Shown here piece by piece: positions 1,955 to 17,014 of a stretch of 64,000 nucleotides of DNA. The position numbers were made by a program, and so were the translations under genes. The number at the start of each line of letters is the position of its first letter. Position 1 is the first letter of the stretch. Origin of the DNA: Nitratireductor arenosus (GTDB lineage Bacteria > Pseudomonadota > Alphaproteobacteria > Rhizobiales > Rhizobiaceae); the NCBI RefSeq assembly GCF_009742725.1, contig NZ_WPHG01000001.1, positions 532,001 to 596,000 of the forward strand, given 5' to 3'. The notes under the pieces are model-generated. The model did no database searches. It worked only from the letters and a program-made list of their open reading frames with translations, and was not told where the DNA came from.

Positions 1955-3331
1955 TCACGACTGGCAGAGATCTGCAATCTCTCCGAGCGCGACCGGGCGG
2001 AGTGGCGGACGAATCGTGAGATAGCCGGCTTCGTCCATGGAGAGACCGCGCGTGGCGGCGGCGAGGCCGGTTAGGGTCATGCCGCAAATCCGCCCCTGGC
2101 AGGGCCCCATGCCGCAACGTAGAAACGCTTTCACCTGGTTCGGTCCGGCGCTGTCTGCGCCGAGCGCCTCGCGGATTTCGCCGCAAGTGACCTCTTCACA
2201 GCGGCAGGCGATGACTTCGTCCGGCGGCGACAGCAATGTGGAACGGGGCCGATAAAGCCTGTCGATCAAGGGACGAGCAGCGAGATGGGCGCGCCGCAAG
2301 CGCCGCGTCGTGCTGCGAAGGCGTTCGTCAACCGGACGTCCGAGTTCTTCAAGAATGGACATGGCTGCGAGCCGTCCCTCAAGCAATGCTACGGTGGCTC
2401 CGCCGATACCCCCGGCGTCGCCTGCGATATACACGCGATCGATCGAACTTTGCAGGCGGGTATCGCGCAGCGGATGGAAGGCTACGCCAGCTTCCGACCA
2501 CCCCATCTGACAGCCCAGGGACCGCGCCATGTGGGTTTCGGGAACCACCCCTTCATGGAGGCCTGTATGGTCGGCGGGGAGGCAGTGCCCGTCACCGCCC
2601 TTGCGGAAGCGGACTTCCAGCCTGTCACCCGTCGTCTCAATGCGGAGATCCTGGGGGCATTCGTGGAACCTGATGCCGGCGCGCCGGAGCTTCCATAAAA
2701 GCTTCAGTCCCTTGAGGAGGTAGGAGGGACCGCGCCCGTGCAGGGCTCCAAGGAGATGCGGCAGGGCGCGGATCAATGCACCGCGCTCGGCAGTATCGAC
2801 GAGCGTCAGGTCTTGCTTGCCCGCAGCAAGACATTGCGCGGCGTAAAGATAAACGAGCGGCCCGGTCCCGACCAGAACGAGCTCGCCCTCGGGCAGAAGA
2901 CCCTCGCGTTTGAGCAGTATCTGCAGGCCACCGATCGTGGTAACGCCGGGCAGCGTCCAGCCGGGTAGCGAAACCGGGCGTTCCATCGCCCCGGTGGCGA
3001 TCAGCAGGTGGCGCGCCCGTTCCCGGCGAATGCCCAGCTTGTCCTTCAGCCAGACCGTTCCGTCGGCCTCAACCCGCCAGGCGCCGGTTTCAAAAGCGAG
3101 ATGCGCGCTGCTTGCTCTCAGGCGGGCGGCTTCAGCCTTGCCGGAGAGATAGTCCGGTCCGAGAATGCGCACGCGGCTTTCCGGAACGGTCTCAATTCCG
3201 CGCCATACCTGGCCTCCCGGACCGGGCGCTTCATCGACGACGAGGACCCGGGCGCCGCTCTCGGCCAGAAGACTCGCCCCGCCTATTCCCGCAGGCCCGG
3301 CACCGATGACGATCGCATCCCATTCGTTCAT
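1955..3331 (-). CDS. NAD(P)/FAD-dependent oxidoreductase with C-terminal BFD-like [2Fe-2S] domain (HcnB/OoxA-like subunit)
   Basis: 458 residues. An N-terminal Rossmann motif (VIGAGPAG, about residues 8-15) binds FAD and a second dinucleotide site (LVGTGPLVYLYAA) lies mid-protein. The C-terminal part has the cysteine pattern CRCEEVTC...CGMGPCQGRIC (about residues 376-416) of BFD-like iron-sulfur modules. This is the large flavoprotein subunit of heteromeric amino-acid/opine dehydrogenases such as octopine oxidase, hydrogen cyanide synthase HcnB and D-hydroxyproline dehydrogenase. It passes electrons from the amino-acid-oxidising subunit to the respiratory chain. I chose the ATG at 3331, which overlaps the stop of the preceding [2Fe-2S] gene (ATGA); an upstream extension of 48 codons is rich in Arg/Gly and is not family-like. 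Substrate specificity is unknown. Confidence 0.85.
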   Translation of the reverse strand: MNEWDAIVIGAGPAGIGGASLLAESGARVLVVDEAPGPGGQVWRGIETVPESRVRILGPDYLSGKAEAARLRASSAHLAFETGAWRVEADGTVWLKDKLGIRRERARHLLIATGAMERPVSLPGWTLPGVTTIGGLQILLKREGLLPEGELVLVGTGPLVYLYAAQCLAAGKQDLTLVDTAERGALIRALPHLLGALHGRGPSYLLKGLKLLWKLRRAGIRFHECPQDLRIETTGDRLEVRFRKGGDGHCLPADHTGLHEGVVPETHMARSLGCQMGWSEAGVAFHPLRDTRLQSSIDRVYIAGDAGGIGGATVALLEGRLAAMSILEELGRPVDERLRSTTRRLRRAHLAARPLIDRLYRPRSTLLSPPDEVIACRCEEVTCGEIREALGADSAGPNQVKAFLRCGMGPCQGRICGMTLTGLAAATRGLSMDEAGYLTIRPPLRPVALGEIADLCQS

Positions 3332-3645
3332 CCCCCATCCCCCGCGGCATCGCGGCGCGCCCCGATCTGGCGCTCGACCGTCATTCCCGGTCTTGTATCT
3401 GTCATGCACGCTCTTTGATTGTCGCGTCCGTCGATGCGCAGCAGGCATTCGTAGCAGATACCCATCAGGCACCATGGGCCCCGCACGGTGCCCGAGGTCG
3501 GTGTCTGCCGAAAATCCACAACCCCTGCCACCATGAGCGCGCCAGCGAGAGTTTCGCCAGGGCGGAAAGAGATAGGGCGCCCCTCGAACAGGAACTCTGC
3601 AGCCCCGTGTTCGGAGGAATCATCATCAAGACGTATGAACGGCAA
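3328..3645 (-). CDS. (2Fe-2S)-binding small subunit (HcnA/OoxC-like)
   Basis: About 105 residues. The ferredoxin-like pattern [15 protein letters not shown]...RAC (four cysteines of a plant-type [2Fe-2S] cluster) follows the [14 protein letters not shown] entry strand typical of the small subunit of HcnABC-type dehydrogenases. It relays electrons between the two flavin subunits encoded on either side. No ATG is suitably placed; a TTG at 3645 is preceded by GCGGAG seven bases away and lies inside the end of the upstream gene, so I take TTG as the start. A longer reading up to 3762 is open but the extra residues do not resemble the family. The 3' end overlaps the next gene by four bases, indicating translational coupling. 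Confidence 0.8.
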
Positions 3646-4741
3646 AGCGCTTACTCCGCATCGAACAAGGAGCGGGGCCAAGGTGGCCTTCGACCAGTGC
3701 CGGGCCCAACTCGAGCCCGTGAAGGCTGGCAAGGGTAACACCGCTATGACAGGTGACAACAAAGGCGCCCGGCGTTTCCGGTGCCTCGTCGTAGATCGGC
3801 AAACCGTCGGCGCTCATGATCCGCAGCGCTCCCCAGGCGCGTACCAGCCGAGCAGCGCGCAAGGCCGGAAAAATCCGTGTTCCTGCCCTGCAAAGCTGGG
3901 CGACGGTCTCCATGTCGGTGCCGGTGGAAAAACCCGCATCTTCATGCGAACTCCCGAGCAGCACCGTCCCTTCCCGCGTCTGCCGGATCACGTTGCTGGG
4001 ATGGTGAAGGAAAGGTGCGACACGGTCCGTTACGACAATCTGGCCGCGTTCGGGCCAAAGTCCGAGTTCCAGCCCAAGCTGACTCGCGAGCCGGGTGGTC
4101 CCGAGGCCAGCGGCAATGGCAAGATGCCGTCCGGTGAATTCGTTGCCTTTAGCATCCTTCACGACGAAACCGCGATGCCGGTCATGGCTGATCTGCTCGG
4201 CGGTAAAGTTCACCGCCATCCGGCCGCCATGATGTCGAAACCCGCTTTGCAAGGCACGTAGAGTGAGGAGCGGGCTCACCTCGCCATCGAGGTCGGAAAT
4301 CGATGCGCCGCAGACGTCGGACCCGATTCCGGGGGCGATTTCGCGCAGGGACTCGCGATCGAGAAGGTCGATCCGAATGGCCGCGCCTTGTTCCCGCGAC
4401 CGGGCGATAAGGAACCGGCGTGATTCCATCTCATCCTCGGAGAGGCAGAAATGGAGCCCGCCGCCACCGCGCCAGCCGATATCGATGCCTGTCTCCTCTT
4501 GAAGGACCGCAGAGAATTCAGGCCAGAGCTGTCCCGCCCGTATCGACCAATGCATGTAGTCTGGATGGCCGAGCCCCTTTCCCTGCAGCCAGACGAGACC
4601 GAAATTTCCGCGAGAGGCACGGTAGGCGATATCGCCTTCGTCGAGCAGGATGACCCGTGCGCGCCTGCGTTGTGCGCCCCACGCAAGCGCGGAACCGATC
4701 AGCCCCCCGCCGATGACGATCAGATCGCTGCCGGATGTCAT
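3626..4741 (-). CDS. FAD-dependent amino-acid/imino-acid oxidoreductase, DAO family (HcnC/OoxB-like subunit)
   Basis: 371 residues with an N-terminal FAD-binding motif ([15 protein letters not shown], about residues 6-20) and the DAO fold to the C-terminus, where [21 protein letters not shown] and [10 protein letters not shown] fit the C-terminal FAD contacts of the glycine/D-amino-acid oxidase group. It would oxidise a D- or imino-type amino acid to an imine, delivering electrons to the iron-sulfur and NAD(P)/FAD subunits encoded downstream. The ATG at 4741 overlaps the upstream stop as ATGA; an alternative start 40 codons further upstream lies inside the racemase gene and lacks support. Its position directly after a racemase suggests that the racemase supplies the enantiomer it uses (inference). 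Confidence 0.85.
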
Positions 4742-5460
4742 AAGGGATAATCCGGTGGCGCCAGCGACAGTTGCATCCAGCGGACCAGGGTCACAATGTC
4801 GTAGATGGGCAGGCCGAAACGGCGCGAAACAGCGGCCGAATAAGGCGGCAGGTTGGCGCATTCGAACACCAGCGCGCCCACATCGTCATGGCGAGCCAGC
4901 AGTTCAGCCACCGTGGCGATCACCTCGGCTTCCTGCGCAGCGGCGTCCACCTCCGTCGCTTGCTCGCGCATATTGCGCAGCAGGATCCCGTCCGGAGGCA
5001 GAGCCGTTGTCGGTAGACCGGACATAGCGCCGACGCCGCGAAAATGGCGCTCGCTCAACGCTTGCGAATCGGAAACGATCAACCCGGGCTTTTTCCCAGC
5101 GGGCAGGATGCGTTCCACCATCGGGATCTGCAGCAGGGCTGAGGAAAGAAAGGGCACGGACGAATGACGGGCAAGCTCGTCCTGCACGGCAGCAAGAAAG
5201 CCGCAGCTGGTCGTGATCGCCGTGCAGCCAAGTGCAACGAGATCGTCTATCGCGATGCGAAAGGCGTCGAGCGAATGGCGAGGATCGCCCTCGATCACAT
5301 CGGCCGGACGCACGCCGCTTACAACCCGGAACTGCACGGGAAAGGGCCATGTGCCTGCATGGGCGACATCGCCGGGAAGTCGGCGAAAGCCAGTGTCGAG
5401 CACGATGATGCCGACCATAGTACCGTGGGCCACGCGGCGGCGCGGTGCGTGCGAAGTCAT
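4738..5460 (-). CDS. Aspartate/glutamate-racemase-superfamily protein
   Basis: 240 residues. The two cysteines expected of the cofactor-independent Asp/Glu racemase fold are present in the usual contexts: one in a TTSCGFL stretch (about residue 86) in the first half and one in FECANLPPY (about residue 200) in the second. The superfamily includes amino-acid and hydantoin racemases, maleate isomerase and arylmalonate decarboxylase, so the exact reaction is open. Encoded between UbiX and the DAO-type dehydrogenase subunit with ATGA overlaps on both sides, it most likely interconverts enantiomers of the pathway amino acid. The ATG at 5460 is the only sensible start. Confidence 0.75.
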
Positions 5461-6050
5461 ATGGCCTCTCCGGCAAGGCTGTCTCTCAGCCCGCTCCAGC
5501 GGCGAATGGCGCCGGTGTCGATATCGAAGAGATCGAGGGCGCGGGCCATTGAATGGGTTATCATCTCCTCAATGCTCTGTGGCTTTGCATAAAGGGCAGG
5601 AACCGGCGGCATGATGATGGCGCCCATGCGGGTGAGCGCCGCCATGGTTTCGATATGCCCCAGATGCAGGGGCGTTTCACGCAATATGAGAACAAGGCGC
5701 CGACGCTCCTTCAGCCCCACGTCGGCTGCGCGGCTCATCAGTGTCGAGGTAACGCCCGTCGCGATTTCGGACATGGTCTTCACCGAACATGGCGCGATCA
5801 GCATGCCCAGGGTCTGGAACGAACCGCTGGCGATGGTGGCTCCGATCTCGGCGGGCGAATGGACGACGTCGGCGCGCTTCTCGATATCGGCTTTCCGCAG
5901 ATCGAGTTCCTGCCTGAGTGTGAGGAGCGCCGACCGGCTGACGATCAGGTGCGTTTCCACGTCCGCTGCCTTCGCCAGGTCGAGCGCGCGCAGCCCGTAG
6001 GCCGCACCCGAAGCACCCGATATGCCGATGATCAGCCGCCGTTTGCCCAT
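5457..6050 (-). CDS. ubiX: UbiX-family flavin prenyltransferase
   Basis: 197 residues beginning with the family signature IIGISGASGAAYG, the FMN phosphate-binding loop. Other typical segments are the IASGSFQTLGMLIAPCSVKTMSEIA region and the RETPLHLGHIETM stretch near residues 140-155. UbiX enzymes attach a dimethylallyl unit to FMN to make prenylated FMN, the cofactor of UbiD decarboxylases. The adjacent UbiD gene ends two bases upstream, the classical UbiD/UbiX pairing. The ATG at 6050 is used; a longer open frame upstream is the antisense-like tail of UbiD. Because it is operonic with a pathway UbiD, it probably serves that enzyme, not only ubiquinone synthesis. Confidence 0.9.
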   Translation of the reverse strand: MGKRRLIIGISGASGAAYGLRALDLAKAADVETHLIVSRSALLTLRQELDLRKADIEKRADVVHSPAEIGATIASGSFQTLGMLIAPCSVKTMSEIATGVTSTLMSRAADVGLKERRRLVLILRETPLHLGHIETMAALTRMGAIIMPPVPALYAKPQSIEEMITHSMARALDLFDIDTGAIRRWSGLRDSLAGEAI

Positions 6051-6052
6051 GG

Positions 6053-7378
6053 TCAGACGCCTCCGAACCAGTCGGAAAGACGGATGTCGTTCACCATGCG
6101 CAGCCGCTTGCGCTCGAACTCCTCCTCGCGTCCCCATGGTTTGGTCGCGTCGACCAGAAGCCGGCCCCAATGGTCCTTTGCCTCGTCGCGATAGAAGGAC
6201 GGGGTTTCGGGAATGATCATCATGTCCTTGTCCGGGCGGCAACGGGTCAGGATCGCCCACTGAACATCGTCCATGTCGTAGAGGTTCACGTCGGTATCGA
6301 CGACGGTGATCTGCTTCGCCCAGATCGGCTCGGCGCCGATGGTGGCGAGCATAACCTGTCGGGCATGGCCCTCGAACTGCGGTTCGATCTGCACGATCGC
6401 ATGATTGACGAAGGGCTGGCAGGTGACGTTGACGATGCCAGGAAGTGCAGCGCTGAGCCGTTGATAGATATTGGCCGAAACGGAAAGCTCCAGCGTCAGC
6501 ACCTCTTCGGGAGAGCCGCAGAGGATCGAGTGAAACAGTGCATCCTTGCGCACGGTCACGCCAAGCACTTCGAAAACAGCGTTGGGGCCGACGGGAACGT
6601 AATAGCCCATGAATTCGCCGAACGGCCCTTCCGGGCGGCGTTCATCGGGTAGGAAACGTCCCTCGATCACCACCTCGGTCTCGGCAGGAACCTCAAGATC
6701 GATGTGATTGCACTTGCGCATGGCGATCGGGCGTCCGCGCAGGCGGGCGGCGACTTCCAACTCGTCCACATCATAGGGCAGCGGTGCGGCCGCTGTCAGG
6801 AAGGCCTGGGCGGGCGGGCCGATCAGCATGGCCGCCTCCAGCGGCTTGCCCATCTTCTCGGCCTTTTCGTGATAGATTGTCAGATGATGGCGCGGCGCGA
6901 GACGGCACCTCAACTCGTTGTCGCTGACAAACATGGAACGGTGATAGGAGAGGTTTCCCACACCCGTCTCGGGGTCTTTTGCGATGAACATTGCCGAGGT
7001 GAAGTAGGGCGCGCCGTCGCGATCGGAGTAGGTGATCAGGGGCAGGTCGGAGAGCCTGACTTCTTCGTACTCGGGAAGCTCGTTGGCGGAGACGAGCGGT
7101 TCCTTCATCTCGGCGGTAGCGAGTGAGGCAAGGCGGCTCCACTGGCGACAGAAATCGCTTGCGTCGATTCCGATCACATCGCCCAGTCTTTCACGGGTGC
7201 TGTAGACGTTGGTAACCACCGGAAAACGCGAGCCCTTCACATTGGTGAACATCACAGGCTTCGCCCATTTCTTCTGGGCCAGATGCGTGACGGCGGCCAG
7301 TTCATGCGCGGGATCCACCTCACGCTCGACGACCAGAAGATCGCCCTGTTCCTGCAGTTTCCGGACGAACTCTCTCAT
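6053..7378 (-). CDS. UbiD-family prFMN-dependent decarboxylase
   Basis: 441 residues, somewhat shorter than E. coli UbiD (about 500). The catalytic pieces of the family are visible: an arginine in NLSYHRSM (about residue 147) and two glutamates in RPEGPFGEFMGYY (about residues 250 and 255), matching the R/E/E triad of UbiD/Fdc enzymes. These enzymes reversibly decarboxylate aromatic, heteroaromatic or alpha,beta-unsaturated acids using prenylated FMN made by UbiX. The gene is followed within two bases by ubiX and preceded by the HutC-like regulator, so it belongs to the catabolic operon. The substrate is unknown; the context of amino-acid oxidation and ThDP decarboxylation argues against a plain ubiquinone-synthesis role. 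Confidence 0.88.
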   Translation of the reverse strand: MREFVRKLQEQGDLLVVEREVDPAHELAAVTHLAQKKWAKPVMFTNVKGSRFPVVTNVYSTRERLGDVIGIDASDFCRQWSRLASLATAEMKEPLVSANELPEYEEVRLSDLPLITYSDRDGAPYFTSAMFIAKDPETGVGNLSYHRSMFVSDNELRCRLAPRHHLTIYHEKAEKMGKPLEAAMLIGPPAQAFLTAAAPLPYDVDELEVAARLRGRPIAMRKCNHIDLEVPAETEVVIEGRFLPDERRPEGPFGEFMGYYVPVGPNAVFEVLGVTVRKDALFHSILCGSPEEVLTLELSVSANIYQRLSAALPGIVNVTCQPFVNHAIVQIEPQFEGHARQVMLATIGAEPIWAKQITVVDTDVNLYDMDDVQWAILTRCRPDKDMMIIPETPSFYRDEAKDHWGRLLVDATKPWGREEEFERKRLRMVNDIRLSDWFGGV

Positions 7379-7399
7379 GCTGGGCTCCTTGCGGCGGGC

Positions 7400-8188
7400 T
7401 TATCTGCCCTTGCGGGGGGTGGTTATAATGCGATTGGTGCGCGCTTCATGGGTCGAGCGGAGCCGATAGCGGTCGCCGGGATAGATGAAGCGGCTGCGGG
7501 TGACGGGAATCCCGTCGCGCCAGGTATATCGGTCGAGCAGGAGGCAGGGCTGGCTGCCGTCGATCTGAAGATGCCGGCGGATTTTCTCATCGGCACGGAT
7601 CGCACGGATTGTGTTGTCGACCGATGTGACGACCGTCTCGCGCAGCAGCCAGGCATGCGGCGTGTTCTGGCTGAAATCCTGATCTATGTAGCTCGGCGCC
7701 TCTGCGGCGTTGACGTAGCGTTCTTCGAGCTGGATCGGCGTGCCGTCCTCCAGGTGCAGGAGGCGGGAGTGAAACACCACTTCGCCGGGCGGAAGTTGGA
7801 GCATGTTGCGACCGAGACCGTCCTTGTCGAGAATCCCGTGTTCCAGCACAAGGCAGTTGTGCGCACCGCCAGATAGCGTGATTTCCTCCGAGATGTCGGA
7901 GAGGTTGAAAACGGCGCACTGCATCCGTGGCCCGATGACGAACGTACCCCGGCCCTGGGTTCGAAGGAGCACTCCGTCGGACTGCAATTCACGCAGCGCG
8001 CGGCGCACCGTAAGACGGGAAGCGCCGAATTCTTCCGCCAGTTCGTCCTCGGGAGGAAGTTGGAAGTCGGCAGGCCATTCCTCGGTTTCGATCCGTCGGT
8101 CGATCGCGGTCTTGATCTGCTCATAGAGGGGTAAATCAGGCTGCACTTTTGTATCCAAAATGATATCATTATCCTTCTGCGCATTCAC
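7400..8188 (-). CDS. GntR-family regulator with UTRA domain, HutC-like (copy 1)
   Basis: 262 residues. An N-terminal winged helix-turn-helix (PLYEQIKTAIDRRI...EFGASRLTVRRALRELQSDG, about residues 20-80) is joined to a C-terminal UTRA ligand-binding domain ending in the HutC-like stretch PCLLLDRYTWRDGIPVTRSRFIYPGDRYRL. It starts at a GTG at 8188 with GGAAGGG upstream; no in-frame ATG is available. It heads the minus-strand operon and faces the ALDH operon, so it probably controls both from the 297-bp divergent region, where matching half-sites are present. A second copy (16241-17014) is very similar along its whole length. The inducer is unknown; histidine-pathway genes are absent, so this is not the hut repressor. 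Confidence 0.9.
   Translation of the reverse strand: MNAQKDNDIILDTKVQPDLPLYEQIKTAIDRRIETEEWPADFQLPPEDELAEEFGASRLTVRRALRELQSDGVLLRTQGRGTFVIGPRMQCAVFNLSDISEEITLSGGAHNCLVLEHGILDKDGLGRNMLQLPPGEVVFHSRLLHLEDGTPIQLEERYVNAAEAPSYIDQDFSQNTPHAWLLRETVVTSVDNTIRAIRADEKIRRHLQIDGSQPCLLLDRYTWRDGIPVTRSRFIYPGDRYRLRSTHEARTNRIITTPRKGR
8159..8170. promoter_or_regulatory. 12-bp palindrome AATGATATCATT at the 5' end of the regulator gene
   Basis: A perfect palindrome within codons 7-10 of the GntR gene. It shares the ATATCAT core with sequences at 8190-8196 and 8391-8397. It is a candidate auxiliary operator for autoregulation. Confidence 0.35.
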
Positions 8189-8373: not shown

Positions 8374-8403
8374 TTGACACAGATAACACATATCATTTTG
8401 TAT
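8374..8403 (+). promoter_or_regulatory. Candidate sigma-70 promoter for the ALDH/ThDP/ABC operon
   Basis: TTGACA at 8374-8379 is followed after 18 bases by TTGTAT at 8398-8403, about 80 bases before the ALDH start codon. The -10 region lies inside the inverted repeat at 8387-8406, a layout suited to repression. The -35 is a consensus match; the -10 is weak. Confidence 0.5.
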
Positions 8404-8406
8404 GTG
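8387..8406. promoter_or_regulatory. Inverted repeat CACATA-N8-TATGTG, likely HutC-type operator
   Basis: Perfect 6-bp arms separated by eight bases, overlapping the predicted -10 box of the plus-strand operon. The half-site TATGTGAA recurs on the opposite strand at 8184-8191, over the GTG start of the regulator gene. GntR/UTRA dimers bind such repeats, so this is the best candidate operator in the divergent region. Confidence 0.5.
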
Positions 8407-8484
8407 AAAACACATCAGTGATGGCGGGCAGCCTGATACGGCTTTAGGCTCCCACCTGCACCGGCGCTGCGATAGGGAGCGATC

Positions 8485-9975
8485 ATGCCTGCTGAAGACT
8501 TGCAAAAATTGTCCATGTATATCGGCGGTGAATGGGTTCCCCCGGCCTCCGGCAGCTATATCGAGACGGTCGATCCTTTCACGGGCAAGCCCTGGGCTTT
8601 GGTTCCGCGGGGCAACGCCGAGGATGCCGACAGGGCTGTCCGTTCAGCACACAGTGCCTTCACCGAAGGGCCCTGGAGGCAGATGCATCCCACCGAGCGC
8701 GGCCGTATCATTCAGCGCTTTGCGACCCTTATCGAGGAACATGCCGATTCTCTCGCTGAGATCGAGGTGCGCGACAATGGCCGCCTGCTCGAAGAGATGA
8801 AGCATCAGATCCGCTACATCCCGCGGTGGTATCACTATTATGCCGGCTATGCCGACAAGATCGAGGGCACCGTTCATCCCTGTGACAAGCCGGCACTGAG
8901 CTTTTCGCGTCATGAACCGCTTGGAGTATGCGTCGGGATCGTGCCGTGGAATGCGCCTCTTCTCCTGTTCTCGCTCAAGGCGGCGCCGGCGCTTGCAGCG
9001 GGCAATACACTGGTGATGAAACCCGCCGAAGTCACGTCGGCGACAGCACTCAAGCTGATGGAACTGGTCGAAAAGGCCGGCTTCCCGAAGGGTGTCATCA
9101 ACGTAGTAACGGGCTATGGCCCGGAGGTAGGAGAGCCGCTTGTCACGCATCCGCTGACCCGGCATCTCGGCTTCACCGGTTCGACAAAAACTGGCTCCCA
9201 TCTCTATTCGCTCGCGGCGAAGGACATTAAGCGGGTCAGCCTCGAACTCGGCGGCAAGTCCCCGAACATCGTGTTCGCCGATGCCGATCTCGACAATGCT
9301 GTGCGCGGCGTAGTCGGTGGCATTTTCGGTGCGGTGGGGCAGACCTGCATCGCCGGTTCGAGGCTTCTCGTGCACCGGTCGGTTCACGACCGGTTCCTGG
9401 AAAAGCTCGTGGCCTTCACAAAGACGGCCCGCCTCGGCGATCCGCGGAAGATCGAAACCCAGATTGGTCCCATCGCCAACAAGATGCAGTATGACCGCGT
9501 GCTTGGCTACATTGACACCGCCCGCCATGAGGGAGCCGAGCTGATCCTCGGCGGCAAACGTCCCGATCAGGAAGAATGCAAAGACGGCTTTTTTATCGAG
9601 CCGACTATTTTTGCGAGCGTAAACAACGACATGCGTATCGCCCGCGAGGAGGTCTTTGGACCTGTCCTGGCAACCATTCCCTTCGACGAGCCCGAAGAAG
9701 CGCTTGCCATTGCCAATGATAGCGAGTTCGGCCTCGCGGCGGGGGTTTGGACTGCGGACATGCGGCTTGCGCTGAAGATGTCGGAGAGGCTGGAGGCCGG
9801 CAGTGTCTGGGTCAACACATATCGCGACATTTCCTACACCACCCCCTTCGGTGGCTACAAGAAGAGCGGTATCGGCCGGGAGAACGGCGTCGCCGGTATC
9901 TATGAATATCTGCAGACGAAGGCTGTCTGGCTTTCGACCGCCGACGAGATCGCAAACCCCTTTGTCATCGGCTGA
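8485..9975 (+). CDS. NAD(P)-dependent aldehyde dehydrogenase
   Basis: 496 residues, full length for the family. Conserved features are in order: GIVPWNAPLL in the coenzyme domain, LGFTGST, the catalytic glutamate in LELGGKSPN, the catalytic cysteine in GQTCIAG (about residue 295), the EEVFGPVL segment, and the C-terminal TTPFGGYKKSGIGRENG. It oxidises an aldehyde to a carboxylate in the cytoplasm. As first gene of the plus-strand operon, directly before a ThDP-dependent enzyme, its substrate is most simply the aldehyde produced by that enzyme (inference). The start is the ATG at 8485 with AGGGAGC upstream. It differs from the ALDH relic at 1003-1214. Confidence 0.92.
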   Translation: MPAEDLQKLSMYIGGEWVPPASGSYIETVDPFTGKPWALVPRGNAEDADRAVRSAHSAFTEGPWRQMHPTERGRIIQRFATLIEEHADSLAEIEVRDNGRLLEEMKHQIRYIPRWYHYYAGYADKIEGTVHPCDKPALSFSRHEPLGVCVGIVPWNAPLLLFSLKAAPALAAGNTLVMKPAEVTSATALKLMELVEKAGFPKGVINVVTGYGPEVGEPLVTHPLTRHLGFTGSTKTGSHLYSLAAKDIKRVSLELGGKSPNIVFADADLDNAVRGVVGGIFGAVGQTCIAGSRLLVHRSVHDRFLEKLVAFTKTARLGDPRKIETQIGPIANKMQYDRVLGYIDTARHEGAELILGGKRPDQEECKDGFFIEPTIFASVNNDMRIAREEVFGPVLATIPFDEPEEALAIANDSEFGLAAGVWTADMRLALKMSERLEAGSVWVNTYRDISYTTPFGGYKKSGIGRENGVAGIYEYLQTKAVWLSTADEIANPFVIG

Positions 9976-9990
9976 GGCCCAGGTGAAGTG

Positions 9991-11697
9991 ATGAGAACAG
10001 GTGCTGAGATTCTTGCCGACGAGCTTGCTCTGAACGGAGCGGGGATCGTTTATCATGTGCCCGGCGAGAGCTTTCTTGTGGCGCTTGACGCGCTGTCTAC
10101 CCGTCACCCGGACATCCGCACCATCAGCTGTCGCCACGAAAATGGCGCGGCGCAGATGGCGGAAGCGCACGGAAAGCTGACCGGCAGGCCGGGTGTCGCG
10201 TTCGTCACGCGCAGCCCCGGTGCCACCAATGCGGTGAACGGGGTGCACACCGCCTTTCAGGATTCATCCCCGATGGTTCTGATCGTAGGTCAGGTCAAGC
10301 GCTCGATCCTCGAGCGCGAGGCCTTCATGTCCTACGATTTCCGCACGATGTTCGCACCGATGGCGAAATGGGTTGCGCAGATCGACGATGCGGCGCGCAT
10401 TCCCGAATTCGTTCAGCGTGCCTGGGCAACCGCCCTTTCCGGGCGCAAGGGGCCCGTGGTGCTTGTCGTCCCTGAGGATGTCATGGAGGAACGAACTGAA
10501 GTTGCGTCTTCGGTCCGACCGGCCAGGCCTTCGCACGCCGGCACACCGGCAGCAGAAGATCTTGAGCGGATATTTTCCATGCTTGCCGAAGCGGAAAAGC
10601 CTCTGGTGATCGTCGGCGGCTCGGACTGGAGCGAGGCCGCGCGTGAAAGCATTCAGCAGTTTGCCACAGCCCTTGGCCTGCCGGTCGTGACCACATTCCG
10701 GCGGCGCGACATCATCGATCACCGGCTCGACTGTTATGTGGGCGAGATCGGCATCGGCTCCAACCCGGCTTTGCTGGCCAACATCCGCGAGACCGATTTC
10801 ATCCTGACGCTCAACGATGCGCTGAGCGACGTGAACACCATCGGTGCGGGCTACATGGAGGGTTTCACCCTCTTCTCCATTCCGCATCCCAGGCAAAAGA
10901 TTGTTCACGTGATGGCCGACGACGGCGATCTGAATCGGGTGTTCCAGGTCGATCTGGCGCTTGTCGCAGACAACGAGAGCTGTGCGCGGGCCCTGGCCGA
11001 ATATCCGGCCACGCCGCGCAGCAAACACAGGGAATGGAGCGCAAAGCTGCGCGCGACATTGATGGAAGAACGTGTACCGCAGCCCTGCCCAGGCAAGATC
11101 GACCTGCCGGGGGTCATGAATTGGCTGCGGGTTCGGTTGCCCGACGAAGCAATCGTCACAAATGGTGTCGGCGCCTATGCCACATGGAGTCAGCGCTATT
11201 TTCCCCATTATCGCTTGCACACGCAGTTGGGGCCGATCAGCGGTTCGATGGGGTATTCCCTGCCGGCGGCGATCTCGGCCAAGCTCACCCATCCCGAACG
11301 GGTGGTGGTAGATTTCGTCGGCGATGGCTGCTTCCAGATGAGCAGCGAGGAGTTGGCGACCGCCGTTCAATACGGGGCCAACGTCATCATCGTCCTCTAC
11401 AATAACGGGCTTTACGGCACGATCCGCATTCACGAGGAAAACCGGCTGGAGGGGCGTGCCAACGGCACCGATCTGGTGAACCCGGATTTCCTCATGCTTG
11501 CCAGGGCCTATGGCGCCCACGGCGAGCGGGTGACCACGACCGAGGAATTTGCGCCCGCTTTCGAGCGTTGCCTCGCCGCCGGCAAGCCTGCGCTCATTGA
11601 AATGGTGATCGATCCTGAAGCGATCCACTGCCGCTACTCGCTGAGCGACCTTCGAGCAAGGCGCGAAGCGAAGGCGCGTGCAAAGGGAGAAACCTGA
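9991..11697 (+). CDS. Thiamine-diphosphate-dependent enzyme (acetolactate synthase/decarboxylase-like)
   Basis: 568 residues with the three-domain layout of the pyruvate-oxidase/acetolactate-synthase superfamily. The N-terminal ThDP-activating glutamate lies in CRHENGAAQMAEAHGK (Glu about 50). The C-terminal ThDP/Mg motif is complete: VGDGCFQMS followed by LYNNGLYG, i.e. GDG to NN. It is not a housekeeping acetolactate synthase: the context lacks ilvN, and the N-terminus (YHVPGESFLVALDAL) belongs to the uncharacterised decarboxylase/carboligase groups. Placed 15 bases after ALDH, it probably decarboxylates a 2-oxo acid to an aldehyde. I take the ATG at 9991, seven bases after AGGTGA; a GTG at 9988 is possible. 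Confidence 0.85.
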   Translation: MRTGAEILADELALNGAGIVYHVPGESFLVALDALSTRHPDIRTISCRHENGAAQMAEAHGKLTGRPGVAFVTRSPGATNAVNGVHTAFQDSSPMVLIVGQVKRSILEREAFMSYDFRTMFAPMAKWVAQIDDAARIPEFVQRAWATALSGRKGPVVLVVPEDVMEERTEVASSVRPARPSHAGTPAAEDLERIFSMLAEAEKPLVIVGGSDWSEAARESIQQFATALGLPVVTTFRRRDIIDHRLDCYVGEIGIGSNPALLANIRETDFILTLNDALSDVNTIGAGYMEGFTLFSIPHPRQKIVHVMADDGDLNRVFQVDLALVADNESCARALAEYPATPRSKHREWSAKLRATLMEERVPQPCPGKIDLPGVMNWLRVRLPDEAIVTNGVGAYATWSQRYFPHYRLHTQLGPISGSMGYSLPAAISAKLTHPERVVVDFVGDGCFQMSSEELATAVQYGANVIIVLYNNGLYGTIRIHEENRLEGRANGTDLVNPDFLMLARAYGAHGERVTTTEEFAPAFERCLAAGKPALIEMVIDPEAIHCRYSLSDLRARREAKARAKGET

Positions 11698-11803: not shown

Positions 11804-12826
11804 ATGAAAACTAGACATATTCTTGCAACTCTCGCTCTGACAGTCTCCTGGTCCGGAATGGCGGCCGCAGACGATTGCATGCTGCGCGTTACGACGTGGG
11901 GCGGCAGCTATCAGGGCACCTACGAATCCGTAGCGGCGAAGTTCGAGGAACAGTACAACTGCAAGATCGAGTGGGTGGTGGGCGCAAGCCCCGACCATCT
12001 GATCAAGGCCCGTCTCGGCCAGGTTGACGTTGTGACGAACACCCTGCTGAATTCGATTGCGGGTGAAAAGGAGGGGCTATGGCTTCCTCTGGATCCGGCC
12101 AAGATCCCCAACATGGCCAATCTCTATGAGAACGCGATTTATTCTAAGAATACGATCTTCGCGAATGTGGGCGACTACGTTCTGGCCTACAATTCAGACA
12201 AGCTCTCCGAAGCGCCGGCCAGCTGGGAGGACCTCTGGAAACCCGATTACAAAAACAGCGTCGTTATCTATGGCGCCGATCACATCCCCACGCTCAGCCT
12301 GATGGTGATGAAAGCCGAGCAGAACGGCGGCGGCATCGACAACATGGAGCCGGGCATCGACCGCATGGCCGAGTTGATCAAGAGCGGGAATCTGATCGGT
12401 ATGCTCGACGTGGAAAGCCAGATGGTTTCCCTGTTTGAAACCGGGGATGCCGCGCTTGGCATGCTGGCCACCGGCCGCATGAAGGATCTGCTGTCGAAGG
12501 GCGCCAAGAATATTAGTTTCGTGCGTCCGGAAGAAGGCACCTTCCCGTTGATCACCAGTGTCAACATTCACAAGGATGCGACCAATCCGGATATGGCCGC
12601 CAACTTCGTCAACTACATTCTGAGCCCTGAAGTTCAAGTAGCCTTCGCCACGCGCAATCTCTACGCGCCGACCGTGAAGAACGCCGAAGTGCCCGAGGAC
12701 TTCGAGTATCGCGAACTGCTCGTGCGTAACGAGGCCTTCGGCCGCCTGTTCCTGCCGGATCAGGAAAAAATCACCGCCAACAAGGCGGATTGGCAGCAGC
12801 GCCTGAACCAGAAAGCAAAGCGTTGA
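11804..12826 (+). CDS. ABC transporter periplasmic substrate-binding protein (spermidine/putrescine-type)
   Basis: 340 residues with a Sec signal peptide (MKTRHILATLALTVSWSGMAAA, cleavage likely after AAA near residue 22). The mature N-terminus LRVTTWGGSYQGTYES and the C-terminal NFVNYILSPEVQVAF are typical of the PotD/PotF-like family of binding proteins. It delivers its ligand to the ATPase and two permeases encoded next. The ATG at 11804 follows AGAGGAG by six bases; an upstream extension of 42 codons is unlike a signal peptide. The ligand is unknown; family members take polyamines, opines or other amine-containing compounds, consistent with the amine-oxidising operon opposite. Confidence 0.88.
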   Translation: MKTRHILATLALTVSWSGMAAADDCMLRVTTWGGSYQGTYESVAAKFEEQYNCKIEWVVGASPDHLIKARLGQVDVVTNTLLNSIAGEKEGLWLPLDPAKIPNMANLYENAIYSKNTIFANVGDYVLAYNSDKLSEAPASWEDLWKPDYKNSVVIYGADHIPTLSLMVMKAEQNGGGIDNMEPGIDRMAELIKSGNLIGMLDVESQMVSLFETGDAALGMLATGRMKDLLSKGAKNISFVRPEEGTFPLITSVNIHKDATNPDMAANFVNYILSPEVQVAFATRNLYAPTVKNAEVPEDFEYRELLVRNEAFGRLFLPDQEKITANKADWQQRLNQKAKR

Positions 12827-12838
12827 TCGGCTAATGCC

Positions 12839-12863
12839 CGGCGGCCCGCAAGCCGGGCCGCCG
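12839..12863 (+). other. GC-rich hairpin after the binding-protein gene
   Basis: Perfect 10-bp arms (CGGCGGCCCG / CGGGCCGCCG) with a 5-base loop, starting 12 bases after the stop of the binding-protein gene. There is no following T-tract, so it looks like a 3'-protecting or processing hairpin, not a strong terminator. Confidence 0.6.
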
Positions 12864-12923
12864 ACTTCGCACATACGTCACGATAGTCCGCAACGACCAG
12901 GCAGGACCGGGATAAACGCAGCC

Positions 12924-14009
12924 ATGTCTGATGATGCCATTCAAGTCTCCGGGGTCGTGAAGCGCTACGGTGCGGCTACTGCGGTGGACAATGTCTCTTT
13001 CAATGTCGCCCAGGGTGAATTCGTTTCGCTGCTTGGCCCCAGTGGTTGCGGCAAGACCACCACGCTGAGGATGATCGCGGGGTTCGCCGAACCCACCGCC
13101 GGCACTTTCCGCGTCAACGACCGCGATGTTACCCGTCTGCCGCCTGAAAAGCGCGAGTTGGGCTTCGTCTTTCAAAATTATGCGCTCTGGCCGCACATGA
13201 CGGTGGCTGAAAATGTGGGTTTCGGCCTGAAACTGCGAAAGAAGAGCCGTGCGTTCATCGCCGACAAGATTGCTGAGTCTCTCTTCGTAACGGGCCTTTC
13301 GGGCTACGAGGATCGGCTGCCGCGTCAGCTTTCGGGCGGCCAGCAGCAGCGCGTAGCGCTCGCACGCGCCCTCGCACTGGAGCCGCAGGTTTTGCTGATG
13401 GACGAGCCGCTCTCAAATCTGGACCGCGCCCTCCGCGTCACCATGCGCCGCGAACTCAAGGAGCTGCAGGCGCGGATGAAGATGACCACGCTATATGTGA
13501 CCCACGATCAGGAGGAGGCGCTGTCTCTTTCCAACCGTGTCGTGATCATGAACAAAGGCAGGGTCGAGCAGATCGCTGCGCCCTACGAGCTTTATGAAAA
13601 CCCGGCCACAAGCTTCGTCGCCGATTTCGTAGGTATAACCAATTTCCTGGAAGGCTCGGCCGTCGGTGTGGATGGCGGGTCGATGGGGGTCAGGTTGCGT
13701 TCCGGCCAGGTGCTGCGTGCCGCGGCGAAAACTGCCGTCACGCCGGGTGCCGAGGTTCGAGCGCTGATCCGGCCCGAGCGGGTGACGCTGACAACGACGC
13801 CCATCGAAGGAGAAAATATTCTGGCGGGCCAGCTCATCCTGTCGGAATATTTCGGCGCGGTGCTGCGGTACTCCGTGCGGCTCGACGGTGGCGAAATCCT
13901 GCGCGCGGAAGTGCACAATTTCGACAGTTTCGTTGAGACGGGCGCCAAGGTTTGGATATGTGTTCTGCCGCAGCACCTGCGGGTTATTTCGCAGGAAGGG
14001 CAGGGCTGA
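12924..14009 (+). CDS. ABC transporter ATP-binding protein (PotA-like)
   Basis: 361 residues. The ATPase domain has Walker A GPSGCGKTT (about residues 37-45), the Q-loop FQNYALWPHM, the signature [15 protein letters not shown], Walker [12 protein letters not shown], and the switch histidine in VTHDQEEAL. A C-terminal TOBE-type domain (about residues 280-355) follows, as in PotA/MalK-type ATPases of polyamine and related importers. It energises uptake through the two permeases downstream. The start at the ATG 12924 is chosen because the protein begins with the usual IQVSGVVKRYG strand; codons from 12834 are out of character and run through the hairpin. Confidence 0.92.
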   Translation: MSDDAIQVSGVVKRYGAATAVDNVSFNVAQGEFVSLLGPSGCGKTTTLRMIAGFAEPTAGTFRVNDRDVTRLPPEKRELGFVFQNYALWPHMTVAENVGFGLKLRKKSRAFIADKIAESLFVTGLSGYEDRLPRQLSGGQQQRVALARALALEPQVLLMDEPLSNLDRALRVTMRRELKELQARMKMTTLYVTHDQEEALSLSNRVVIMNKGRVEQIAAPYELYENPATSFVADFVGITNFLEGSAVGVDGGSMGVRLRSGQVLRAAAKTAVTPGAEVRALIRPERVTLTTTPIEGENILAGQLILSEYFGAVLRYSVRLDGGEILRAEVHNFDSFVETGAKVWICVLPQHLRVISQEGQG

Positions 14010-14013
14010 CAAG

Positions 14014-14871
14014 ATGCGCCGCGTTCTTCCTCCTCTCGCACCGGCCTTGATCGCGCTGCTGATCTTCGTTGCCTTTCCGATGCTGTGGGTGCTGCGCACC
14101 AGTTTCAACGAACTGGAGGCAGGAGCCTATATCGTCGATGCGATGACACTCGACAACTACACGCGTTTCCTTGGGGACAGCTGGTATCTTATCAACACGC
14201 TGTGGTTCTCGATACGGATCGCCCTCATTGCCACGCTGATCTCGGTGGTTTGTGCCTATCCGGTGGCGCTCTATGTCACCCGGACCTCGGGCCTCCAGCG
14301 CAATATCCTTCTGGCGCTGATCATGGCGCCTCTGCTGATTGGCCTGGTGACCCTGGTCTATGGCTGGATCGTCATTTTTCGAGGCGGCGGACTTTTGAAT
14401 TCGCTGATGATCACGCTGCGGGTCTACGACCAGCCCGTTCGCTACATGTGGGACATCAAGGGGGTGGTGATCCTCCTCGTATACATCGGCGCGCCCTATG
14501 TGGTGCTTTCTCTGCTCGATTCCATCGAGCGCATCAGTCCCTTCCTGGTGGAAGCCGCGCGCAATGTCGGCGCCAGCCGCTGGACGGCCTTCTGGAAGAT
14601 CGTCTTCCCCCTGACTATGCCCGGGCTCTATGCCGGAGTCGTCATCGTGTTCGCCTTGAATTTCTCGGCCTTCGCGGTGCCGCTGATGATCGGCGACAGC
14701 AATACGCAGATGATCGGCTTGATCGTTTATCGCGAGGCGCTGCTCAACAACGACCTGCCGTTTGCTTCAGCGCTGTCGGTGATCATGGTAGTCGTGAACG
14801 CGCTGATCCTCATGGGAATGGCAGTGCTCTTCGGTCGCCTTATCCTCAATCGACTGGAGGTAAAACGGTGA
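14014..14871 (+). CDS. ABC transporter permease (PotB-like)
   Basis: 285 residues with about six membrane helices. The EAA cytoplasmic loop (VEAARNVGASRWTAFWKIVFPLTMPG, about residues 180-205) that docks to the ATPase is clear. With the following gene it forms the heterodimeric membrane channel of the polyamine-type importer. The ATG at 14014 lies four bases after the ATPase stop; a longer frame begins inside the ATPase gene and lacks a membrane character. It ends by overlapping the next gene (GTGA), so the two permeases are translationally coupled. Confidence 0.9.
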   Translation: MRRVLPPLAPALIALLIFVAFPMLWVLRTSFNELEAGAYIVDAMTLDNYTRFLGDSWYLINTLWFSIRIALIATLISVVCAYPVALYVTRTSGLQRNILLALIMAPLLIGLVTLVYGWIVIFRGGGLLNSLMITLRVYDQPVRYMWDIKGVVILLVYIGAPYVVLSLLDSIERISPFLVEAARNVGASRWTAFWKIVFPLTMPGLYAGVVIVFALNFSAFAVPLMIGDSNTQMIGLIVYREALLNNDLPFASALSVIMVVVNALILMGMAVLFGRLILNRLEVKR

Positions 14872-15662
14872 CCCGTTTCGACTTCGGTACGGTCGCGCTG
14901 CGGCTGATCACGCTCCTCATGATGACGTTCCTGGTTTTTCCGATCGCGGTGACCCTCATCGTGGCGGTCAATCCGCGGGAATTCATCCTTCCGCCGAACG
15001 GATTCACGCTCGATTGGTTCAAAGCCGCGTGGAGTTCGAAAACCTTCCTACGTGGCATGGGGGTGAGTCTCGTTCTCGGGATCGCGGCGGCCTTCCTAGC
15101 GAATGTGCTCGCGTTGCCGGCCGCCATGGCGCTGGTGCGCAACAATTTTTTCGGTAAGGCGGCGATCAATATCGTCCTGATGTCGCCGCTGCTTATTCCA
15201 ACTACGATCTTCAGTCTCGCGCTCTATATCTATTTCGTGCGTATCGGCTACGGTTCAGGCCTTCTGCCGCTGCTGGTGGGCCACACGGTACATATCATGC
15301 CTTATGCCCTGCGCATTCTGACCGCGAGCCTACACAATCTGGACCCTTCCTATGAAGAGGCGGCGCGCATTGTTGGGGCCGGGCGCATACGAACGCTGTT
15401 CTCCGTAACGCTTCCGGTCATCCGCACGGGGCTGATCTCAAGCTTTGCCCTCTGCTTCATTCTCTCTTGGAACGACTTCCCGATTTCGGTCTTCCTCGCC
15501 CCACCCGGCTGGACGCCTCTGCCGGTGGAACTCTTCTCCTACATCAAGTTCCAATACGATGCCGTCGCGGCAGCGCTTGCAGGCTCGTTGATCCTGCTGT
15601 CGGCCCTGGCGATCGTGATCATTGACCGGTTGGCGGGGTTGCGACGCGTGCTGCGCTCCTGA
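14868..15662 (+). CDS. ABC transporter permease (PotC-like)
   Basis: 264 residues, about six membrane helices, EAA loop YEEAARIVGAGRIRTLFSVTLPVIRTG near residues 160-185. It is the second permease of the importer. It starts at GTG 14868, overlapping the previous stop, with GGAGG seven bases upstream. The much longer open frame that contains it begins far upstream in the wrong frame of the first permease and should not be used. The substrate follows that of the binding protein and is unknown. Confidence 0.9.
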   Translation: MTRFDFGTVALRLITLLMMTFLVFPIAVTLIVAVNPREFILPPNGFTLDWFKAAWSSKTFLRGMGVSLVLGIAAAFLANVLALPAAMALVRNNFFGKAAINIVLMSPLLIPTTIFSLALYIYFVRIGYGSGLLPLLVGHTVHIMPYALRILTASLHNLDPSYEEAARIVGAGRIRTLFSVTLPVIRTGLISSFALCFILSWNDFPISVFLAPPGWTPLPVELFSYIKFQYDAVAAALAGSLILLSALAIVIIDRLAGLRRVLRS

Positions 15663-15750
15663 ATGGAGTTATGAAGCAGGGCCGCTGGACAGATATCTCG
15701 AACTCTCACGCAGCACGCGCCCATAAGTGGCTGCGACAAAGGAGGTTTTT

Positions 15751-16131
15751 TTGAAGAACCGCATATTTGCCGGCGTTCCCTCTGAAGAACTTGCTGGCTA
15801 CGCCAATGCTGTGGTCGACGGTACCACGATCCATGTTTCCGGCACCACAGGCCGCGACCCAGTTTCGGGTGTTTTTCCTGAGGATGCGGTCGAACAGGCG
15901 AGGAACTGTCTCGCGGCGATCGACTCTTCGTTGCAGCGGGCAGGTGCGAGCCTTGCGAACGCGGTAGTCTGCCGTGTGTATGTCGTCGATCTGGCCAGTG
16001 CGGCGGCGGTGACGCCCGTATTGGGCGAGGTCTTTCGCGAAATCCGACCGACGAACACGTTGCTGATCTGCCAGATTCCGGCCGCAGGCGCGAAGGTGGA
16101 GATCGAGATTACGGCCTCAACCGCTTCGTGA
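15751..16131 (+). CDS. RidA/YjgF-family enamine/imine deaminase
   Basis: About 126 residues. Characteristic RidA features are present: VVDGTTIHVSGTTGRDP near the N-terminus, a conserved arginine in VCRVYVVDL, and the C-terminal GAKVEIEITA strand. RidA proteins hydrolyse reactive imines/enamines to 2-oxo acids plus ammonia. As last gene of the importer operon, opposite a flavin amino-acid dehydrogenase operon, it fits hydrolysis of the imine made by that enzyme. A perfect AAAGGAGG (15738-15745) stands five bases before a TTG at 15751, which I take as the start; the GTG at 15727 would put the Shine-Dalgarno sequence inside the gene. Confidence 0.85.
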   Translation: MKNRIFAGVPSEELAGYANAVVDGTTIHVSGTTGRDPVSGVFPEDAVEQARNCLAAIDSSLQRAGASLANAVVCRVYVVDLASAAAVTPVLGEVFREIRPTNTLLICQIPAAGAKVEIEITASTAS

Positions 16132-16240
16132 CCGGCAAGGTGCGGCGGTTTGGGTCGCCGTCGGCTTCGCGACGCCGGGCGGCAACCTCGTTGTTCGTCC
16201 GCATTGCGGGTCGATGGCCCAGGGTATGAAGTATGGCCTC

Positions 16241-17014
16241 TTAGCGGATTCTTCTCGACGAGTTCGATGGCGTGACGGCGGGGCGCAGTGAGCCTTGGGG
16301 CGCGCTTGCCTCGTGGGCGCTGCGCAGTCGATAGCGATCCCCGGGATAAAGAAAGCGACTGCGCGTGACGGGAACGTCCCCATACCATGTGCGCCGATCT
16401 AGAAGCAGGCACGGCTGGTTGGAATCGATCTGCAGAAGTGCGCGTGCTTCCTCGTCCGGACGAACGGCGCGGATCGTGTTGTCGACGAAAGTGACTTCGG
16501 TTGTGCCCAGCAAATACGCATGCGGCGTGACGCGCGTGAAGTCCTGCTTGAGGTAGTCAGGTGCCATCGCTGCGTTGACGAAGCGGTCCTCGAGTTGGAT
16601 CGGGGTGCCGTCCTCCAGGTGCAGCAGGCGTGAATGAAAGACGTCGAGGCCAGTTCTTGTGGGTAGAAGGTTGGCGAGTGAACTATCGGAGGGGAGCACC
16701 CCCAGGGACACCACCTTGCTCAGGTGAACGCCGCCGCCTTCCTCGATTTCCTCGGATACGTCCTGGAGGTTGAAGATTGCGCATTGCATGCGCGGGCCGA
16801 TCACGAAAGTGCCCCTTCCCTGGATGCGGACCAGCATGCCTTCGGTCTGGAGTTCACGCAAAGCCCGCCGGACCGTCAGCCGTGAAGCGCCGAACTCTTT
16901 TGCCAGCATCTCTTCTCCCGGGAGTTGAAAATCTGCGGGCCATTCCTGTTGCTGGATGCGCTTCTCAATCACCGTTTTGATCTGCTCGTAAAGCGGCTGA
17001 CCAGGTTGGCTCAC
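16241..17014 (-). CDS. GntR-family regulator with UTRA domain, HutC-like (copy 2)
   Basis: 257 residues, convergent with ridA. The winged helix-turn-helix (EFGASRLTVRRALRELQTEG, about residues 40-60) and the UTRA domain match copy 1 (7400-8188) over their whole length, with more than half of the residues the same by eye, including GRGTFVIGPRMQC and FHSRLLHLEDGTPIQLE. Divergence is strongest in residues about 95-120 of the UTRA domain, which may reflect a different effector. The start is a GTG at 17014 with GGAG seven bases upstream. Only about 36 bases separate it from an IS3-family terminal repeat, so its native promoter region has probably been cut off. Confidence 0.88.
   Translation of the reverse strand: MSQPGQPLYEQIKTVIEKRIQQQEWPADFQLPGEEMLAKEFGASRLTVRRALRELQTEGMLVRIQGRGTFVIGPRMQCAIFNLQDVSEEIEEGGGVHLSKVVSLGVLPSDSSLANLLPTRTGLDVFHSRLLHLEDGTPIQLEDRFVNAAMAPDYLKQDFTRVTPHAYLLGTTEVTFVDNTIRAVRPDEEARALLQIDSNQPCLLLDRRTWYGDVPVTRSRFLYPGDRYRLRSAHEASAPQGSLRPAVTPSNSSRRIR

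Follow-up and report, generated by a model that had tools for sequence, protein, structure and literature searches.

A conserved UbiD/UbiX catabolic island in Nitratireductor arenosus and its possible relation to histidine-derived compounds

Among the prenylated flavin mononucleotide (prFMN)-dependent UbiD decarboxylases, HmfF has furan dicarboxylate as its substrate and AnInD has indole-3-carboxylate, according to the available text of PMC8988006, and the available part of PMC10865409 describes LpdD as a small beta-sandwich UbiD accessory protein encoded beside a UbiX homologue. In Sinorhizobium meliloti, satABC (SMa2195-97), named a symbiotic arginine transporter, and potABCD4 (SMa2203-9), assigned to putrescine, both belonged to a transposon sequencing (TnSeq) symbiosis set, and deletion of satABC lowered nitrogenase activity by 55.45% (PMC7268258, available text). 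Here we describe a gene island at positions 1955-17014 of a 64,000-nucleotide stretch of the N. arenosus genome (contig NZ_WPHG01000001.1, positions 532,001 to 596,000; the whole stretch is called the window below), in which an operon for UbiD, UbiX, a racemase and an HcnABC-type dehydrogenase faces genes for an aldehyde dehydrogenase (ALDH), a thiamine diphosphate (ThDP)-dependent enzyme, an ATP-binding cassette (ABC) importer and a Rid-family protein. Every gene named in an earlier note, which had been made from the DNA letters alone, was at its place, and the gene set and order were confirmed. The island is a conserved, coherent catabolic regulon built from known enzyme families. With a probability of roughly 0.35, we propose that its genes form one regulon for the catabolism of a nitrogen-containing compound, which is probably an imidazole derived from histidine.

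Linkage and distribution of the island

The genes at 1955-17014 are one linked unit. A UbiD scan of the species-genome collection gave 152 confirmed stretches, the best 80 of which represented 79 distinct loci, and 37 of these encoded a UbiD at least 70% identical to that of the window. In this group of 37, UbiX was present in 36 loci, a HutC-like repressor in 31, ALDH in 30, DUF2390 in 28, flavin adenine dinucleotide (FAD) oxidase c6 in 22, the racemase and HcnC in 13 each, the Rid protein in 12, and the ThDP enzyme in 11. Absences are to be read as upper limits, since some contigs were short, and one genome supplied two loci (L037 and L079). All 11 loci with the ThDP enzyme also had the racemase/Hcn genes, and each of the 23 plasmid records with a ThDP enzyme of at least 76% identity also had a UbiD of at least 75% and a racemase of at least 77%; these records, compared by eye, come from few species (18 from S. 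meliloti and 5 from Paracoccus). The two operons, which the earlier note had read as one catabolic unit, were thus not unlinked in these loci and records. L038 and L044 had Hcn/racemase genes without the ThDP enzyme in the flanks, FAD oxidase c6 and the ThDP enzyme occurred together only in L047 of Paraburkholderia xenovorans LB400, and gene order deviated in L040 (an insertion), L047 (no Pot-type ABC match) and L052 (the Hcn block turned).

The same gene set recurred in Nitratireductor, Chelativorans, Paracoccus, Chelatococcus and S. meliloti pSymA, so that the description of these enzymes as rarely seen together had to be given up. The island was thus found in several alphaproteobacterial genera, with a fused form in P. 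xenovorans LB400, its carriers including bacteria of soil and sea. Within the window's family it was patchy: of 297 genomes, the own one included, 5 had a UbiD of at least 88% identity. Its core consisted of ALDH, the HutC-like repressor, UbiD and UbiX, and was accompanied by two largely alternative entry modules, the racemase/HcnABC/ThDP set found in the window (module A) and a sarcosine-oxidase-like FAD enzyme (module B), which lay side by side on the S. meliloti plasmids (pSymA). The S. meliloti region from SMa2195 to SMa2211 and beyond had the same genes in the same order at 68-92% identity (47% for DUF2390), SMa2211 being the ThDP gene (PMC12542648, available text). The open-licence papers searched contained no characterized homologous cluster for which a substrate had been assigned. 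The ThDP enzyme was useless as an island marker below about 60% identity, because 184 of the 297 family genomes (own included) gave a match at E<=1e-150, the others listed being about 45-50% identical; racemase relatives in the family were only 37-45% identical and came from 13 other genomes. A parallel cluster was seen on an Agrobacterium CFBP6625 plasmid (L143), where a racemase of 45% identity lay near an aminotransferase, a ThDP enzyme, ALDH and an FAD oxidoreductase, with an amino-acid ABC importer and an FAD monooxygenase nearby and no UbiD in the stretch shown.

Enzyme families and operator-like palindromes

The residues that we take to be catalytic in the UbiD, ThDP, ALDH, racemase and [2Fe-2S] components were present. 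UbiD contained three UbiD domains and the R...E...E network, of which R147 and E239 were kept in all 56 aligned rows and E255 in 55 of them; the ALDH had E254 and C288, the ThDP enzyme E51 and GDG-NN, the racemase C86 and C201, and the HcnA-like protein C58, C63, C66 and C79. The best matches of the UbiD among solved structures in a phmmer search were 6h6v (1.5e-70), presumably HmfF (its database entry names a UbiD-like decarboxylase only), and 7p9q (AnInD; 2e-55). The DAO, Fer2_4 and Pyr_redox/SO_alpha_A3 subunits expected of an HcnABC-type enzyme were encoded in a single operon; plasmids of Bosea and Chelatococcus also carried a similar Hcn-like trio in the neighborhood of racemases. The FAD enzyme of the other entry module (module B), a member of the DAO family, had N-methyltryptophan and sarcosine oxidases as its best named relatives, all under cut-off. 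Among the matches listed (25 of 42), the ALDH was under the cut-off of every NCBIfam model (best 528.9 bits versus 668.6), and no equivalog cut-off for a betaine-aldehyde, phenylacetaldehyde or other named ALDH was reached. The ABC genes of the polyamine-type importer proposed earlier were present; its binding protein scored under the PotD and PotF cut-offs (47.6 bits versus 582 and 35.9 versus 636). The features are listed in Table 1.

Table 1. Features of the island and the adjoining DUF2390 gene (positions in the window)
Feature	Position	Strand	Remark	Basis
TIGR02444/DUF2390	1295..1822	-	beyond the island span, downstream of the gene for the HcnB-like protein	NCBIfam TIGR02444 76.1 bits, cut-off 48.3; PF09523 92.4 bits
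HcnB-like FAD/NAD(P) oxidoreductase with BFD-type [2Fe-2S] region	1955..3331	-	start ATG 3331	PF07992 and PF17806 over cut-off, Fer2_BFD just under
HcnA-like small [2Fe-2S] protein, separate gene	3328..3645	-	probable TTG start	PF13510 Fer2_4 75.2 bits; four Cys
HcnC-like DAO-family FAD oxidoreductase	3626..4741	-		PF01266 186.8 bits
Asp/Glu-racemase family protein	4738..5460	-	two candidate catalytic Cys	PF01177; PRK07475 290.7 bits, cut-off 231
UbiX flavin prenyltransferase	5457..6050	-		TIGR00421 215 bits, cut-off 108.9
UbiD decarboxylase	6053..7378	-		TIGR00148 323 bits
GntR/HutC-like repressor 1	7400..8188	-	probable start GTG 8146	TIGR02018 254.6 bits, cut-off 220
Predicted operator palindrome AATGATATCATT	8159..8170		just upstream of the probable repressor 1 start, before the repressor-UbiD operon	
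ALDH promoter TTGACA and degenerate operator copy	8374..8410	+	TTGACA at 8374, ACATATCATTT at 8388	conserved in alignment
Aldehyde dehydrogenase (ALDH)	8485..9975	+		PF00171 598.8 bits
ThDP-dependent enzyme, PRK08199 family	9988..11697	+		790.8 bits, cut-off 539
ABC solute-binding protein, polyamine/aminoethylphosphonate superfamily	about 11804..12826	+		SBP_bac_6; 8/8 NCBIfam matches under cut-off
ABC ATPase, PotA/PhnT type	12924..14009	+		best 383.6 bits, cut-off 457.7
ABC permease 1	14014..14871	+		PF00528
ABC permease 2	14868..15662	+		PF00528
Rid-family protein, catalytic Arg of RidA absent	15727..16131	+		PF01042
GntR/HutC-like repressor 2	16241..17014	-		TIGR02018 260 bits, cut-off 220

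A YddG-type aromatic amino acid exporter gene (1-940, minus strand; 406 bits, cut-off 300) adjoins the island. Elsewhere in the window, a queuosine-precursor transporter is encoded at 18790-19461 on the plus strand (TIGR00697 93.3 bits, cut-off 50.95), and the sole tRNA found by ARAGORN is a tRNA-Arg (CCT) at 35856-35932, plus strand.

Both divergent promoters have a shared operator-like palindrome nearby, as judged from base patterns. Of the 31 distinct stretches separating repressor 1 from ALDH (extended by 45 bases, window included; 37 regions before identical ones were removed), 20 contained the form RRTGATATCAYY, compared with an average of 0.03 and at most 2 in 200 shuffles. The core of this form, TGATATCA, occurred in 25 of the 31, with a mean of 0.38 and at most 2 in the shuffles. 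The exact 10-mer ATGATATCAT was found at two places in the 4.8-Mb genome, in the island and within an open frame. A search for a wider regulon, with one mismatch allowed, gave 39 sites, compared with 2 for the reversed control pattern; two of these 39, outside the island, were examined and both lay within long open frames. Because the listed 5' extension of repressor 1 contains the palindrome, its start is probably GTG 8146. The two repressors, both over the TIGR02018 cut-off and 69% identical to each other, are HutC-like by sequence; they would bind RRTGATATCAYY, a putative operator, between the divergent operons. The canonical hut operator is TTGTATATACAA, for which the window had no site at up to 2 mismatches, and the 10-base form TGTATATACA gave one 2-mismatch match in the genome's hut region.

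Proposed route and rival explanations

Genes of histidine utilization (hut) were found in the fetched flanks of 13 of the 49 loci with a UbiD of at least 60% identity and in none of the 30 loci below 60% (Fisher test, p=0.0013), these loci not being phylogenetically independent and one of the 13 having a weak HutD match only. In Chelativorans (L019), HutH, HutI, HutG and HutU lay beside the island, all over curated cut-offs, together with a HutD match that was under the cut-off of its named model and rests on position. UbiDs of 61-69% identity were found beside HutU, HutI or HutG with quite different partners, in the orders UbiD-M20 hydrolase-HutU (L062), CoA-transferase-M20-HutU-ABC-UbiD-UbiX (L053) and HutI-dehydrogenase-UbiD (L063), or with HutG and UbiD about 8 kb apart (L066). 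HutH was over its cut-off in 28 of 28 genomes with a UbiD of at least 70% (drawn from 29 of the 37 loci, L055 left out), compared with 108 of 387 genomes of the class that were at least 90% complete (Fisher test, p=3e-15); this baseline was unmatched for genome size and phylogeny, so that the p value overstates the case. The genome's own hut operon lies on the same contig, at a distance of about 740 kb. Together, these results give a pointer to histidine chemistry that is real but not decisive. As separate observations, L066 and L104 had a UbiD beside a histidinol-phosphate-aminotransferase-like gene and, with L053, L062 and L063, add UbiD contexts that look imidazole-related, and the own genome contained an ergothioneine-type cluster (L136, C9:724001-744000, about 6712-19640) of ErtD, ErtE, thiohydantoin desulfurase and thiourocanate hydratase genes. 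Some 15 bases behind the last of these came another UbiD and UbiX, and then genes for a tripartite ATP-independent periplasmic (TRAP) transporter, a CoA-transferase and an acyl-CoA dehydrogenase. An ergothioneine pathway was rejected for the island, which has no ergothioneine-type enzymes of this kind.

The constancy of ALDH, UbiD and UbiX while the amine-oxidizing module changed argues for a common aldehyde. The ABC importer would bring in the amine. In module A, the racemase would set the chirality and the HcnABC-type complex would oxidize Ar-CH(COOH)-NHR, a secondary or arylglycine-type amine, to a 2-oxo acid, which the ThDP enzyme would decarboxylate to Ar-CHO; in module B, found in other genomes, one sarcosine-oxidase-like FAD enzyme would convert Ar-CH2-NHR directly to Ar-CHO, and the module A substrate would be that of module B with one extra carboxyl. 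In the core, ALDH would oxidize Ar-CHO to Ar-COOH and the prFMN-dependent UbiD would release Ar-H and CO2, with UbiX supplying the UbiD cofactor, perhaps helped by the DUF2390 protein. Entry through the racemase and the HcnABC-type complex, passage through the ThDP enzyme and ALDH to an acid, and action of UbiD on a (hetero)aromatic acid had been proposed in the earlier note; these steps gained support, the chemistry being deduced from the enzyme families. The note did not cover the alternative FAD-oxidase module, the operator common to both operons, the linkage to hut or DUF2390.

The hut linkage suggests that Ar-H may be histidine or another hut substrate, and the hut neighbors, taken together with the five-membered heteroaryl acids used by the UbiD relatives, make an imidazole carboxylate the simplest proposal; if true, this would be a new substrate class for prFMN chemistry. 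The most economical substrates would be spinacine, the C5 adduct of histidine with formaldehyde, for module B and, by chemical analogy, a carboxylated, glyoxylate-derived spinacine analogue for module A, since Pictet-Spengler adducts of histidine carry CH2-N or CH(COOH)-N on an imidazole carbon. In the available texts, spinacine, which histidine and formaldehyde form spontaneously, was detected in cells and in mice (PMC9814826), and it is documented as a histidine analogue (PMC3116161). Our specific guess is that the island may remove a C1/C2 adduct of the spinacine type from the imidazole ring. The full version of this idea, a repair-and-salvage pathway that strips formaldehyde or glyoxylate Pictet-Spengler adducts off histidine and ends in a prFMN-dependent imidazole-carboxylate decarboxylation feeding hut, with DUF2390 as a new prFMN/UbiD maturation class, seems unlikely to hold in all its parts.

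Several observations weigh against the imidazole regulon. No hut gene was seen in the flanks of 36 of the 49 loci with a UbiD of at least 60%. The island repressors shared only 32% identity with the HutC encoded in the genome's hut operon, and the palindrome had no copy in that hut region; the effector therefore need not be urocanate. L056 and L064 (UbiD 67%) had a 61% ThDP enzyme and ALDH with no Hcn/racemase match in the flanks, L056 having little flank on the side where these genes would lie. Acetolactate synthases were the closest solved relatives of the ThDP enzyme. The catalytic arginine of RidA is Arg105, and the island Rid protein had Asn at the position aligned to the catalytic Arg of human RIDA; its relatives had Asn or Ser there in 17 of 17 readable rows (alignment of 18 rows, one truncated row dropped). 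To our knowledge, Rid groups that lack the arginine have no imine-hydrolase activity, and the earlier assignment of this protein as a RidA-type imine hydrolase with its arginine in place was not supported. We found no report of bacterial spinacine use or catabolism in the literature searched and no evidence there of the glyoxylate adduct in nature, and the placing of UbiD as the last step is one that we infer.

The same order of enzymes might act on a ring other than imidazole (furan, pyrrole, indole or phenyl), the substrate being a glycine, an amine or an opine of aromatic or heteroaromatic type, as in the earlier note, and we regard this as a possible, if tentative, reading. It accords with the furan and indole acids used by HmfF and AnInD and with Burkholderiaceae loci (UbiD about 48-50%) that repeat the ThDP enzyme, FAD oxidoreductase, racemase and ALDH with no hut gene in the stretch; however, the hut linkage was confined to the group with UbiDs of at least 60%, which contains the island, and HutH was present in every genome searched. 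That UbiD works first or on a side branch, on an imported compound already carboxylated on its ring, with ALDH after or beside it, is improbable in our view: gene order does not show step order, and some related UbiDs lay beside hut genes without an island-type ALDH match (L053, L062, L063 and L066, L062 being only 4 kb long), but ALDH was retained in 30 of the 37 loci while the amine modules varied, and the palindrome was shared where ALDH diverged from the repressor-UbiD operon.

Uptake and catabolism of arginine and putrescine, as the names satABC and potABCD4 imply, is a still weaker candidate. By the order and numbers of the locus tags, we infer that SMa2203-9 and SMa2195-97 match the transporters of the two entry modules, and in the S. 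meliloti pSymA loci (L097/L098) satABC and potABCD4 appear to belong to these modules. Both transporters are in the TnSeq symbiosis set and the satABC deletion had its nitrogenase effect, but the assignments are called putative, and the available text showed no uptake data (PMC7268258). The island binding protein was under every NCBIfam polyamine cut-off, and the S. meliloti locus-tag literature assigned no substrate in the portions available. We know of no UbiD chemistry on arginine or putrescine. Arginine and putrescine as substrates of these nitrogen-fixation-linked transporters may be wrong, and the island offers an alternative reading. Least probable by far is that two unrelated operons came to be adjacent by chance and spread horizontally, as the patchy distribution and presence on plasmids might suggest; the linkage seen in all 11 loci and all 23 plasmid records, the palindrome near both promoters, and the retention of the core with two different entry modules disfavor chance co-location.

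DUF2390 and comparison with known systems

TIGR02444 was found in 20 of the 297 genomes of the window's family, and 19 of these 20 had a UbiD (12 by the UbiD search at E<=1e-60 and 7 more by PF01977; the exception was G290), compared with 5 of 38 genomes without TIGR02444 (Fisher test, p=8e-10); G049, with UbiD and no TIGR02444, was outside the 38 counted. The two genes were on one contig within about 10.5 kb in 15 of the 20 genomes (distances by eye), about 30 kb apart in G074 and G177, and on different contigs in G008 and G241, and the 12 UbiDs of the E<=1e-60 set were 34-100% identical to the window UbiD. Among the 79 loci, DUF2390 was 0-8.2 kb from UbiD or UbiX in 29 and within 1 kb in 17; it was missing from all 30 loci with a UbiD below 60%, but in L011 and L015, from other genomes, it neighbored UbiDs of 49% and 34%. 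Two Neorhizobium plasmids had it in clusters that also contain xanthine-dehydrogenase genes, at distances of about 35 and 23 bases from UbiX; UbiD was annotated in the first stretch and not in the second. TIGR02444/DUF2390 genes were thus seen to track UbiD/UbiX across pathways (window 1295-1822, L011, L015, L018-L060, L157 and L158). A general role is countered by E. coli, which has UbiD without TIGR02444, and by the own genome, with three UbiDs and one TIGR02444. The AlphaFold2 model of DUF2390 was all-helical, with a mean confidence (pLDDT) of 91, and a Foldseek search with it gave 39 PDB matches at E<=10, of which none reached E<=0.001; the top match, 14-3-3 (E=0.47, TM 0.25), was not taken as a homologue at these values. 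Among papers mentioning DUF2390, no title concerned its function. From its gene neighborhoods, DUF2390/TIGR02444 is a candidate UbiD/prFMN accessory protein.

PhdC is reportedly an accessory protein in UbiD activation, and the candidate role of DUF2390 would resemble those of PhdC and LpdD; LpdD, however, is a beta-sandwich, whereas DUF2390 is predicted to be all-helical. For satABC and potABCD4 of S. meliloti, the names rest on arginine/putrescine annotation, and the UbiD context was absent from the available text. The island resembles the hut pathway in that hut genes flank some of its copies and its repressors are of the GntR/HutC type, but these repressors are distant from true HutC, the palindrome is absent from hut, and no hut enzyme (HutH, HutU, HutI or HutG) lies inside the island, such genes adjoining it in some genomes only. 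The island UbiD is homologous over its full length to 6h6v and 7p9q, with R/E/E kept; HmfF, a furandicarboxylic acid decarboxylase that occurs with UbiX, and AnInD act on five-membered heteroaryl acids. No furan or indole pathway genes were seen in the island, where UbiD is linked with amine oxidation and ALDH and, in certain genomes, with hut genes. With the HcnABC-type, opine and D-amino-acid dehydrogenases it shares the DAO subunit, the small [2Fe-2S] protein, the FAD/NAD subunit with a BFD-like region and the racemase alongside, but in the island this trio is coupled to a ThDP enzyme, ALDH and UbiD.

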